NCBI GenBank assembly: GCA_020719775.1
Contig: DYPS01000003.1
Span: 32,937-68,657 of the forward strand
Reading direction: 5' to 3'
Origin: Desulfosporosinus sp.
Lineage (GTDB): Bacteria; Campylobacterota; Campylobacteria; Campylobacterales; Arcobacteraceae
Length of the DNA: 35,721 nucleotides
The position numbers and the translations under genes were made by a program. The number at the start of each line of letters is the position of its first letter. Position 1 is the first letter of the stretch. Below the pieces are notes generated by a model, which was not told the origin of the DNA, searched no databases, and saw only the letters and a program-made list of their open reading frames with translations. Shown here in pieces: positions 23,052 to 27,309 of the stretch.

Positions 23052-23091
23052 TTACTTTTTAAATATATGCAATAATTTATCTTTAATTAAT

Positions 23092-23097
23092 TACAAT
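23092..23097 (+). promoter_or_regulatory. Possible -10 box for the FrdAB-like pair
   Basis: TACAAT about 85 bases before the flavoprotein ATG. An alternative is a TTGACA at 23138-23143 with a poor TACAAA 19 bases later. Both are weak calls in AT-rich DNA. Confidence 0.25.
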
Positions 23098-23182
23098 ATA
23101 CCCAATGTAGTATCTCACGATTTCAAAAATTGATAACTTGACAGAGAGACTAAAAATACATGTACAAATGCTAGGATAATTG

Positions 23183-24766
23183 ATGGAAAATTTTGATTAT
23201 GATGTTGTGATTATTGGGAGTGGTGGAGCGGCTCTAAGTTGCGCAATTAACGCAAAAAGAAATGGGTTATCTGTACTTCTTGTCACAAAATCAAATGGAA
23301 CAGCAGCTCAAACAACACAAGCTCAAGGTGGTATCAATTCTGTTTTAGGGAAAGGAAATGATACTATCGCATCACATATTCAAGATACATTCAATTCTTC
23401 ATGCGAGCTAGGAGATATTTCCTCAATAAGTTTAATGTGTGAAAATGCTATGCAAACAATCGAATGGTTAAATAATTTAGGTGTTCCATTTAGTAGGGAT
23501 GACAACAATAATATTGCTCAACGAAAACTGGGAGGAGCATCTTTTCCAAGAGCTTGTTATAGCTCAGACTATACTGGGCTAAAAATACTTCATACGCTTT
23601 ACGATACAGTTATTAAACTACAAATACCAATTTTAGAAAATTCATTTCTGATTGATTTAATTTCAGATGATCAACAAGTATACGGGATTAAATATTTAGA
23701 TATAAAAAGCACTAAATTAAAACAAATATTTGCCTATCAAACTATTCTAGCAACAGGTGGATACAGTTGCGTTTACCATGGTTTTAGCACAAATAGCAAA
23801 GAAACAACAGCAGATGGTTTAGTTTCCGCTTTTAAGGCTGGTGCCATTCTTGAAAATATGGAATTTATTCAATTTCATCCAACAGCATTAAAAAATCGAT
23901 TTATACTCATTAGTGAATCAGCAAGAGGAGAAGGTGGCTATTTAGTTACAAAAGATGGGAATAGATTTGTTGATGAACTTCTACCAAGGGACATAGTAGC
24001 TAGAGAGATTTATAAAAGACTTCAAAATAATGAAGAAATATTTCTTGATTTACGTCATATTCCTAAGAAAAAACTCCTTCACTTATTACCTCAGGAATAT
24101 AAATTGATCTTTAAATTTACTTCATTAGAGATGGATAAAGACTTGATCCCAATCATACCAGCAGCACACTATACTATGGGTGGTATAATGTGTGACAAAA
24201 ATTCGAAAACTTCTTTACGTAATTTATATGCTATTGGTGAAGTTGCTTCAAATGGTGTTCATGGTGCCAATAGATTAGGTGGAAATTCTCTTTTGGAAAT
24301 AGTAACTTTTGGAAGATTACTAGGTGAAAATTTAAAAAATTCCATTTACGTTTCTAATCTTTATAGTAAAAGCAATTTAAAAGAAAACATTTCTGCACTA
24401 ACAAATTTATTTCAGCAAACCCCTTTATTAGATTTTTATTCAAAACGAAAAGAGCTTGGGAAAATCATGTTTGATAATGTTGGACTTTTTAGAAGTGAAA
24501 AAAAACTTTATTATGCCTTGGAATTTATTGAAGATATACTCAACAATATAGATAAATATGGTATAGAAGATAGGTCAAAATGTTTTAACTCAAATTTAAT
24601 TGATTTTTTAGAGTTTAAGAATCTTGTTTTATGCTCAAAAGTAATTATATTAAGTGCATTAGAAAGAAAAGAAAGTAGAGGTGCTCATTTCAGAAATGAT
24701 TATCCAGCACAAAATCCAATCTATAAAAAATCAATAATAATAGATAATAATTTTTTACTGAAGTAG
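23183..24766 (+). CDS. Fumarate reductase/succinate dehydrogenase-like flavoprotein, soluble type
   Basis: A 527-residue FAD protein of the FrdA/SdhA/NadB superfamily. The dinucleotide fold is VVIIGSGGAALS (8-19). Substrate residues are HPTALK, SARGEGGYL and LPRDIVAREI (catalytic Arg). NLYAIGEVASNGVHGANRLG and a C-terminal ERKESRGAHFRNDYP close the FAD site. The His that binds FAD covalently in FrdA/SdhA appears to be Gln43 (QTTQAQGG), so FAD is probably non-covalent, as in L-aspartate oxidase. The LGGNSLLEIVTFGR segment and the adjacent iron-sulfur gene favour a fumarate reductase-type enzyme over NadB. There is no Tat signal, so it is cytoplasmic. Six bases separate it from the iron-sulfur gene. 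Confidence 0.75.
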   Translation: MENFDYDVVIIGSGGAALSCAINAKRNGLSVLLVTKSNGTAAQTTQAQGGINSVLGKGNDTIASHIQDTFNSSCELGDISSISLMCENAMQTIEWLNNLGVPFSRDDNNNIAQRKLGGASFPRACYSSDYTGLKILHTLYDTVIKLQIPILENSFLIDLISDDQQVYGIKYLDIKSTKLKQIFAYQTILATGGYSCVYHGFSTNSKETTADGLVSAFKAGAILENMEFIQFHPTALKNRFILISESARGEGGYLVTKDGNRFVDELLPRDIVAREIYKRLQNNEEIFLDLRHIPKKKLLHLLPQEYKLIFKFTSLEMDKDLIPIIPAAHYTMGGIMCDKNSKTSLRNLYAIGEVASNGVHGANRLGGNSLLEIVTFGRLLGENLKNSIYVSNLYSKSNLKENISALTNLFQQTPLLDFYSKRKELGKIMFDNVGLFRSEKKLYYALEFIEDILNNIDKYGIEDRSKCFNSNLIDFLEFKNLVLCSKVIILSALERKESRGAHFRNDYPAQNPIYKKSIIIDNNFLLK

Positions 24767-24772
24767 GACAAA

Positions 24773-25477
24773 ATGACAATAATTATAGATACAACCAGTT
24801 ATGATATTGATGAAAAAATAACAAATTTACTTGATGCTTTTATCTATATTAAAGAAAGTCTAAATAAATCATTTACATTTAAGTATGCTTGTAAAAGTGG
24901 AAATTGTGGTAGCTGTGCTGTTAGAGTTAACGGGGTAGAGAAATTAGCTTGCACTACATCATTCAAATCATCTGATGTAATTTTACCACTTAGAAACCTT
25001 CCAATTGTTAAAGATTTAATTATAGACAATCAAAATATAAAAGATAAACTTCTCTTATCCCAAGCTTTTCTATCTACATTTAATAATGAAGCTAGCATCT
25101 CTCAACATGATGTTGATATTATAGATATTGAAAGTAGCTGTATCTTATGTAATAGCTGCTATAGCTCTTGTCCTGTTTATGAAGTAAATAAAGAGTTTTT
25201 AGGTCCATTTGCTCTAACTAGAGTCTACAGATATCTCAATGATACAAAGGAACTATCAAGCAAATCAAAACTTGATGCTATTCAAAAGAATGGCGTATGG
25301 GATTGCACTTTATGTGGAGCTTGTAGTATTGTTTGTCCTCAAAGTATTGATATCAAAAATGACATAGTTAAACTACAAAATCTAAGTGTTCAAAATGGAT
25401 ATCAAAATCCAGCTTTTTCTAGCTCTTTTGAGAGTAATTTTAGTTTTGATGGTGGATTTAATCCAAACGGATTTTAA
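24773..25477 (+). CDS. FrdB/SdhB-like iron-sulfur subunit with two predicted [4Fe-4S] sites
   Basis: A 234-residue partner of the preceding flavoprotein. The plant-type [2Fe-2S] ligands are Cys40, 45, 48 and 60 (CKSGNCGSCAV). The first cubane motif is Cys123, 126, 129 and 133 (CILCNSCYSSCP). The second is Cys178, 181, 184 and 188 (CTLCGACSIVCP). Canonical FrdB has a non-Cys residue at the position of Cys181, giving a [3Fe-4S] cluster next to quinone; here a fourth cysteine should give [4Fe-4S]. No FrdC, SdhCD or SdhE-like membrane subunit is encoded nearby, and the next gene is convergent. The C-terminal 25 residues are Ser/Phe/Asn-rich and of low complexity. Confidence 0.8.
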   Translation: MTIIIDTTSYDIDEKITNLLDAFIYIKESLNKSFTFKYACKSGNCGSCAVRVNGVEKLACTTSFKSSDVILPLRNLPIVKDLIIDNQNIKDKLLLSQAFLSTFNNEASISQHDVDIIDIESSCILCNSCYSSCPVYEVNKEFLGPFALTRVYRYLNDTKELSSKSKLDAIQKNGVWDCTLCGACSIVCPQSIDIKNDIVKLQNLSVQNGYQNPAFSSSFESNFSFDGGFNPNGF

Positions 25478-25484
25478 TCCTTAG

Positions 25485-26675
25485 TTATTCTACAATATGC
25501 CCCACAAATTTTGACATATTATCAAGAATCTCCCCACCTTTTCTAAATCCTAATCCACAGGCTTCATAAGCATAAAAAACTCCTGCTTGGTAGCTATTCC
25601 CCTCTGTATCTTTTGCAAATTCTACATATTCTTGATAGATTGGTTTAAAGTTTTCATATTCACCTTCCGTTTTTTTGTAAAGTGAATTATCCCTATTGAT
25701 GATAGCAACATTTGCACCTTCTCTCCCAAAACACATCTTTTCAACTTGTTTTTTATTTTGGAGTGGCTCAAAAGAAGTTTCTAAAAGAAGTGGATGATTT
25801 GGAAACAGATCCCATAAAATTTTCATAATTCCTTTGCTTTGGAAGAGTAGAGTATATGCTGGATTAAATACGATTGCCTTTTGATTCTCTATAAGTTCGG
25901 TAAGAGTCAAAGCCAATTCCCCCTCATCAATAGCGATGTTTTCCCAAGGGATAAGTTTAAACCAAAATTCAAACAACTCTCCATCTTTACTAATCCCCTC
26001 ATCACTAAAAGCAACCTCATCTACAAAAGCAAAATCTGTTCTATATCCAACTTCAGATGCGATATGTTGGAGTAATTTAACAGTATGTTCCTCTTCTATA
26101 TTTCCTTTAATTGAAGAAAAAAGTATCTTCCAACCTAGCTTTTCATAATACTCATCGAACTTTTCTAACTCTCCATTTAAAGTGATACATCTTCTAAAAT
26201 TATCCCCAATCGCTTCATATATTGAGTTAAATTGACTTGATTCATCTAAGTTATTAAACTTCAACATCGCCCACTGGATAATCATTGTTTCAAACAGTGA
26301 AGTGGGGGTATCAGCATTAAATTCTATCAGTTTTATTGGTTTACCATCTATTCCACCAGCTAAATCAAATCTTCCATACAAATGCCAATGAACATCATTT
26401 TCCCAAGACTTTTTGATAATCTCTACAAGATTAAAAGGGATATCAAGTTCATGAAAAAGATTATTATCTATCACAAACTGTCCAGCTTCCACATACATAT
26501 CATACAGTTCATTAGTTGCATCATAAAAGTTTGTCGCTTCTTCTTCACTCAGCTGAATCAATTTATTTGAGATATAAGAGCTATTATCTAAATCGGTATG
26601 CCAAGTAAACCCAATAGATTCTAAATAACTATTTGTTAGTGGTTTAAGTTCTTTCAATTTCACTTTATGCTCCAT
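25485..26675 (-). CDS. Glutathionylspermidine synthase-family ATP-grasp protein (YgiC/Cj0372-like)
   Basis: A 396-residue protein matching the synthetase (ATP-grasp) domain of the GSP_synth family. Recognisable are DVHWHLYGRFDLAGGIDG, IKLIEFNADTPTSLFET (metal and ATP site), LIENQKAIVFNPAYTLLFQSKG and CFGREGANVAI. YgiC and its relatives have ATPase activity; their ligation product is unknown. The ATG at 26675 (MEHKVKLKEL) is chosen because it overlaps the 3' end of the lipoprotein gene by 11 bases. The longer open frame to 26852 is only an out-of-frame reading of that gene. The pairing with a lipoprotein recalls Cj0371-Cj0372 and ygiB-ygiC. Confidence 0.88.
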   Translation of the reverse strand: MEHKVKLKELKPLTNSYLESIGFTWHTDLDNSSYISNKLIQLSEEEATNFYDATNELYDMYVEAGQFVIDNNLFHELDIPFNLVEIIKKSWENDVHWHLYGRFDLAGGIDGKPIKLIEFNADTPTSLFETMIIQWAMLKFNNLDESSQFNSIYEAIGDNFRRCITLNGELEKFDEYYEKLGWKILFSSIKGNIEEEHTVKLLQHIASEVGYRTDFAFVDEVAFSDEGISKDGELFEFWFKLIPWENIAIDEGELALTLTELIENQKAIVFNPAYTLLFQSKGIMKILWDLFPNHPLLLETSFEPLQNKKQVEKMCFGREGANVAIINRDNSLYKKTEGEYENFKPIYQEYVEFAKDTEGNSYQAGVFYAYEACGLGFRKGGEILDNMSKFVGHIVE

Positions 26676-27309
26676 AAGTACTGCTTGATGCAGGTGCTTT
26701 ATTTGAGTTGTTAAAATAGCCACTTTTCGCTGTATTTGTGGTACTTTTTCCAGTTGATGTACCACTTGAACCACTTGATGGTTTGTTGAAACTATTGACA
26801 CTTTTACTATAAGTTTGAGGTGATTTATAGTTTGTTCTTCTTTGGTTTTCATAATTGCTATTGTTAAAAAGTTTATTTCCTATATATGCCCCAATCATAG
26901 CTCCAGCTGCACTTGCTAGGAGCGTTTCTCCTAAACTCATACCACCACTACTCATAGATGGATTTGTAAGTCCAGAGGTATTATTATCAATCTTTTTCGC
27001 TTCATCTGCTACTAATGTATCAATCTCCTCTTTTGATAAAATTCTCTCTTTTCCATCTTCTCTTAAAACAATAGTTGTATTTGTACTAGGAAATTCATCA
27101 ACTATTTTATAGCTTCCATCTGGTGATTTTTCTATCACAACAAAAACATTTTTCTTTTCACTGACATTTGAAAGTGCCGATTCGGTTTGTTGTGGTTGCT
27201 CTTGTTTATTTTCACAACCTGCAAAACTAATAAGTAGCATTGAACCAAATCCACCAACTATCGCAAAATTTGATATCTGTTTTAAAAAATACTTTTTATC
27301 TCTTTTCAT
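26665..27309 (-). CDS. UPF0323 family lipoprotein (Cj0371-like)
   Basis: A 214-residue lipoprotein: a basic N-terminus, a hydrophobic stretch and the lipobox SFAGC with Cys32, a substrate for LspA. Residues 50-115 form a mixed domain (VFVVIEKSPDGSYKIVDEFP, VLREDGKERILSKEEI). A glycine-rich hydrophobic hairpin follows (SLGETLLASAAGAMIGAYIG, about 125-144), then a Ser/Asn/Thr-rich tail of about 60 residues. The function is unknown. It resembles YgiB (DUF1190) in having the same ATP-grasp partner downstream, with an 11-base overlap of the two genes. Confidence 0.85.
   Translation of the reverse strand: MKRDKKYFLKQISNFAIVGGFGSMLLISFAGCENKQEQPQQTESALSNVSEKKNVFVVIEKSPDGSYKIVDEFPSTNTTIVLREDGKERILSKEEIDTLVADEAKKIDNNTSGLTNPSMSSGGMSLGETLLASAAGAMIGAYIGNKLFNNSNYENQRRTNYKSPQTYSKSVNSFNKPSSGSSGTSTGKSTTNTAKSGYFNNSNKAPASSSTYGA

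Follow-up and report, generated by a model that had tools for sequence, protein, structure and literature searches.

The reductive TCA cycle includes the reduction of fumarate, a reaction that is also a common electron sink. The 8-methylmenaquinol:fumarate reductase (MFR) of Wolinella succinogenes, the product of SdhABE (type E), binds its FAD non-covalently, has an SdhB with the E-type pattern of cysteines for a second [4Fe-4S] cluster, lacks the FAD-linking histidine, oxidises 8-methylmenaquinol and reduces fumarate with no succinate oxidation (PMC2680327). Variants of the FAD-linking histidine in the E. coli and yeast enzymes likewise reduced fumarate and lost succinate oxidation (reported in PMC2680327). 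Simpler assemblies have also been described. The relevant text of PMC4674564 reports an FrdAB of two subunits alongside one of three, and Sievert et al. (2008), as cited there, suggested that the two-subunit Frd of Sulfurimonas denitrificans is cytoplasmic and serves the reductive TCA cycle; the idea of a soluble enzyme is therefore not new. S. denitrificans, by implication in PMC2628731, differs from Nautilia in having a single complex that lacks an anchor, and putative TfrAB have been placed in reductive TCA clusters of other bacteria (PMC6315080). Cofactor traits and a C-terminal tail form no part of the account in the relevant text of PMC4674564, and the contribution of the present analysis is a conserved set of such traits, a G/F-rich tail and an argument from distribution.

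The window analysed, a stretch of 35,721 nucleotides from a genome of the family Arcobacteraceae (order Campylobacterales), holds a flavoprotein gene (A) and an iron-sulfur protein gene (B) in the same direction with 6 bases between them, each start being preceded by AGGA (Table 1). The start of A was taken as the ATG at 23183, one codon after the TTG at 23180 used in the ORF listing; the protein begins MENFDYDVVIIGSGG, its FAD domain match runs from residue 8 of the listed ORF, and no Tat signal of the MFR type was found on it. In profile searches, the best NCBIfam match of A was TIGR01812 at 468 bits, which is under the cut-off of that model, and B matched TIGR00384 (dhsB family) with an E-value of 4e-50 and 170 bits vs a cut-off of 88. 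A QueF-like gene and a gene for a 202-aa protein without a Pfam match lie 5' of the pair. The gene after B (25485-26852) is glutathionylspermidine-synthase-like (GSP_synth) and lies on the opposite strand, so that no anchor gene follows B, just as the original prediction had it for both membrane and CCG-domain subunits, and the membrane anchor of classical SQR/QFR (types A-D) is thus absent directly after the pair in the window. No ferredoxin or flavodoxin gene is linked to the pair. The GSP_synth-like ORF overlaps a lipoprotein-like ORF (26665-27309) by 188 bases; its true start is probably later, since the first 74 residues lie outside its Pfam match, which starts at residue 75.

Table 1 Features of the A-B locus, with positions in the window
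Feature	Position	Strand	Detail
Spacer 5' of A, Phd/YefM-like gene absent	23052..23182	.	125-250 aa gene there in relatives
Flavoprotein subunit A, 527 aa, FAD_binding_2 + Succ_DH_flav_C	23183..24766	+	PF00890 E 2e-88, PF02910 E 1e-26
Gln43 of A, position of the FAD-linking His	23309..23311	+	codon CAA
Leu116 of A, position of E. coli FrdA Phe / NadB Glu121	23528..23530	+	L/M/F in 40/40 orthologues
Iron-sulfur subunit B, 234 aa, plant-type [2Fe-2S] domain + two predicted [4Fe-4S] sites	24773..25477	+	PF13085, PF13183
Cys181 of B, fourth cysteine of third-cluster motif WDCTLCGACSIVCP	25313..25315	+	codon TGT; Val at the aligned site of E. coli FrdB
G/F-rich C-terminal tail of B, end GGFNPNGF	25406..25474	+	G+F enrichment, terminal Phe

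Classical SQR/QFR enzymes of types A-D carry the FAD-linking histidine, which in E. coli FrdA and SdhA and in the SdhA of the window's own genome stands at the site aligned with residue 43 of A. A has Gln43 instead, as had been read from the window originally, and this glutamine is kept in 39 of 40 orthologues of A, the remaining one having Gly; the NadB proteins of the host family and of E. coli have Asn or Ser there. The dicarboxylate-binding and proton-transfer residues of the complex II superfamily are all present in A (H232, S244, E245, R269, H329 and R364), and this fumarate site is conserved in 40/40 orthologues except at Ser244 (39/40). Since enzymes without the FAD-linking histidine reduce fumarate only (PMC2680327), A is best read as a putative one-way fumarate reductase.

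The identity of the flavoprotein as L-aspartate oxidase (NadB), which the original prediction had named as the outcome to be watched for by clustering and by a search for nadB elsewhere, was rejected. A resembles NadB in its flavoprotein fold and in having no covalent histidine. However, NadB has no iron-sulfur partner, it has Glu at the Leu116 position (in all 12 rows of the NadB clade, vs 0/40 orthologues of A), and a separate NadB of 484 aa is encoded on C36 of the window's own genome. In a quick tree, with SH-aLRT support only, the Wolinella-type FrdA on a long branch and methanogen TfrA left out, A formed a clade (99) separate from that of NadB (99) and from that of the covalent SdhA/FrdA (97). 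The split ran between the NadB side and a side with the nif-linked flavoproteins, the covalent SdhA/FrdA clade and the clade of A.

A different substrate, either another C4-dicarboxylate or a related compound, on which the enzyme would act as reductase or dehydrogenase with an aspartate-oxidase-like or mesaconate/enoate activity, could be imagined from the Leu116 position, which is Leu or Met in 31/40 orthologues of A, and from the Mfr of Campylobacter jejuni, which according to a reference title in PMC6682613 also reduces mesaconate and crotonate. This reading is distinctly improbable, as the remaining residues of the fumarate site are all kept, the NadB-type Glu is missing throughout and NadB has a gene of its own.

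The third cluster of classical SQR/QFR (types A-D) is held by three cysteines; B has a fourth, and its cluster is predicted from Cys181 to be [4Fe-4S]. Replacement of valine by cysteine at the third-cluster site of E. coli FrdB gives a [4Fe-4S] cluster. The residue aligned with Cys181 is Val in E. coli FrdB, Ile in E. coli SdhB and Leu in Wolinella-type FrdB, and all 12 cysteines of B, including Cys181 as originally noted, are kept in 38/38 orthologues. Judged from this degree of conservation in aligned sequences, Gln43 and Cys181 are not chance substitutions, and together they fit one-way fumarate reduction. Cysteine also occurs at the aligned position in 3/3 SdhB proteins of the SdhABE type, and the anchor-bearing SdhB of the window's own genome (L012, C36) has the fourth cysteine as well; the trait is therefore a type E feature and not special to the pair.

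The original prediction took Gln43, Cys181 and the missing anchor together as pointing to an enzyme that does not use quinone directly. Only the last of these stands as an argument, because the quinol-oxidising MFR joins non-covalent FAD to an E-type SdhB, which removes the other two. The pair resembles MFR in the fourth cysteine and, by prediction here and by measurement there, in non-covalent FAD and one-way direction; it differs in that MFR has the CCG membrane subunit SdhE and a Tat signal, neither of which is present here (PMC2680327). From the Wolinella-type quinol:fumarate reductase FrdCAB, with which it shares the superfamily fold and the fumarate site, the pair differs in the covalent histidine, the three-cysteine third cluster and the FrdC anchor of that system. 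The search for a separate frdCAB or sdhABE set gave a divided answer, in that SdhABE was found on C36 and no Wolinella-type FrdA was found in the window's own genome, so that a hidden Wolinella-type FrdCAB was rejected.

The case for solubility accordingly consists of the missing anchor and of the inventory of CCG proteins (PF02754) in the window's own genome, which comprises only SdhE (C36, with its own SdhAB) and a 445-aa protein (C14); no orphan CCG partner for the pair was found there. Of the 40 gene neighbourhoods retrieved around A, 38 also contain B, mostly directly after A, one of the other two being cut by a contig end, and no anchor or CCG gene was seen after the pair in the neighbourhoods with both subunits. 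These observations also bear on the rival idea that the pair takes electrons from quinol through a membrane partner, either one with a distant gene or one of a type not yet recognised, with the tail of B as docking element. MFR offers a precedent for such a combination of cofactors with quinol oxidation (PMC2680327), and strong conservation of the tail behind a variable linker is common in docking tails, but with neither a partner gene beside the pair nor a spare CCG protein in the genome we regard this arrangement as unlikely.

With somewhat more belief than doubt, and by reading of genes and residues, we take A-B to be a soluble, essentially one-way fumarate reductase. It would be a cytoplasmic heterodimer of FAD flavoprotein A and iron-sulfur protein B that converts fumarate to succinate, probably without a useful succinate dehydrogenase direction. 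Electrons would enter at B and pass through the predicted [4Fe-4S], [4Fe-4S] and [2Fe-2S] clusters to the non-covalent FAD of A, and from there to fumarate bound at the conserved His/Arg site. As neither an anchor nor a CCG module accompanies the pair, a soluble low-potential carrier such as ferredoxin or flavodoxin, reduced for example by POR, would be the most likely donor; taken alone, this choice of donor is tentative and may well be wrong.

A thiol donor, which had been among the original proposals, is unlikely because there is no CCG module. The methanogen thiol:fumarate reductase TfrAB (CoM/CoB) is also a pair of FrdA and FrdB-like proteins, and the profiles for TfrA and TfrB gave 393 and 157 bits; these scores are, however, far under the curated cut-offs (718 and 385, respectively), and B, with its 234 residues, is without the CCG domain, so that a thiol-driven TfrAB was rejected. 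The NADH-dependent FrdABCDE of Hydrogenobacter consists of five subunits with an NADH module, whereas only two genes are linked here. Closer in gene content is the two-subunit FrdAB of S. denitrificans and the Zeitz epsilonproteobacterium, which has FrdA and FrdB genes without an anchor in the relevant text of PMC4674564; the pair, likened to it by description, is probably orthologous.

B ends in a G/F-rich tail, a feature absent from the original prediction. Gly and Phe account for 44% of its final 20 residues vs 7% elsewhere in the protein, and the terminal Phe is found in 35/38 orthologues. The tail follows a variable linker and reads GGFNPNGF in most members of the host family and FGSFGLDF, GFDPNGGF and similar elsewhere, while it is absent from the SdhB of SdhABE. 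In the window's own genome this motif precedes a stop at a single place, and the tail as a tag common to other proteins was thereby rejected. The tail is a mark of the pair's family. It may shield the surface that meets the anchor in complex II, or dock close to it; whether it caps that former anchor face or docks the donor is a guess, as is its position, since the AlphaFold model of B, made from a two-sequence alignment, had a pLDDT of 31 and was left unused.

Within the window's family, 64 of the 104 genomes carry the pair, with orthologues taken as matches with E below 1e-120, a cut from paralogues set by the analyst; elsewhere in the order Campylobacterales, other families likewise include many genomes with the pair. 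Beside the distant matches outside Campylobacterota, at most 37% identical, a scan by query-specific patterns found no B-like gene. The pair is an old conserved family with a clade of its own.

The window's own genome has porGDAB and an ATP-citrate lyase (C44, E 2e-79), and, given that it has no Wolinella-type FrdA, a cytoplasmic enzyme dedicated to the fumarate step of the reductive TCA cycle, as suggested in the original prediction and by Sievert et al. (2008) as cited in the relevant text of PMC4674564, would be an attractive reading. The pair does occur in 19 of the 22 lyase genomes of the family. However, 45 of the 64 pair genomes are without the lyase and 3 lyase genomes are without the pair, whereas SdhE and the lyase occur together in 22 genomes, with 1 genome having SdhE only and none the lyase only. 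A role of the pair dedicated to the reductive TCA cycle is therefore not supported in the host family and is improbable, carbon fixation being at most one of several uses. The association of SdhABE with ATP-citrate lyase offers a direct alternative for the carbon-fixation role, and Wolinella-type FrdA is absent from 16 of the 23 SdhE genomes.

The pair tracks POR and nitrogenase better than the lyase. In plain Fisher counts, which ignore ancestry although related genomes are not independent, 48 of the 104 genomes had both the pair and POR, 16 the pair with no POR match at the cut-off used and 7 POR only (pair in 48/55 genomes with POR vs 16/49 without), and 29 had both the pair and NifH, 35 the pair only and 1 NifH only (pair in 29/30 genomes with NifH). 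This pattern fits a low-potential donor, with ancestry and genome size as confounders, the latter likely because pair-bearing genomes tend to be larger. A wider proposal, speculative and on the whole rather doubtful, is that of a ferredoxin- or flavodoxin-fed soluble Frd, widespread in Campylobacterales, which would be complex II minus anchor, covalent flavin and three-iron cluster, plus a conserved G/F tail that would either cap the former anchor surface or dock the donor. Such an enzyme would take up low-potential electrons that POR or nitrogenase-linked metabolism releases, and would not serve carbon fixation. If A-B is indeed a soluble one-way enzyme, many Campylobacterales would have a second succinate route that bypasses the quinone pool, and reconstructions that credit "FrdAB" with carbon fixation may name the wrong enzyme.

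The SdhABE of the window's own genome (L012:4949-8542, C36) is a cytoplasmic type E enzyme with the covalent-FAD histidine, and SdhABE of this kind was found in all 22 lyase genomes of the family and in one 86%-complete genome.

A Phd/YefM-like gene lies just 5' of A in all five same-genus neighbourhoods read and in most others in the family (for example L106:5481-5912, L112:5297-5989 and L014:5591-5995). Its product has a Phd/YefM-like N-terminal part, a charged variable linker and a conserved C-terminal LK(E/D)FW; a search of the window's own genome gave no match. As it is missing there and has no conserved cysteines, it was rejected as a required subunit. Across families, the region 5' of the pair repeatedly holds a gene for a D-2-hydroxyacid dehydrogenase, in many cases together with purT- and yjbQ-like genes (L110, L112, L113, L165-L168 and others). 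The nearest named relative (L014) has the same gene set and order as the window, and its title, Helicobacter pylori PMSS1, is probably a mislabel.

A solo FrdA-like flavoprotein of about 549 aa with Asn at the FAD-linking position (L126:5971-7611, L127:6021-7661, L128:6067-7716 and L129-L132), is encoded close to nif genes, with an aldo/keto reductase on one side and a sigma-54 activator on the other; no neighbouring FrdB-like gene was found, and the flavoprotein was present in all 30 NifH genomes and in one 76%-complete genome.
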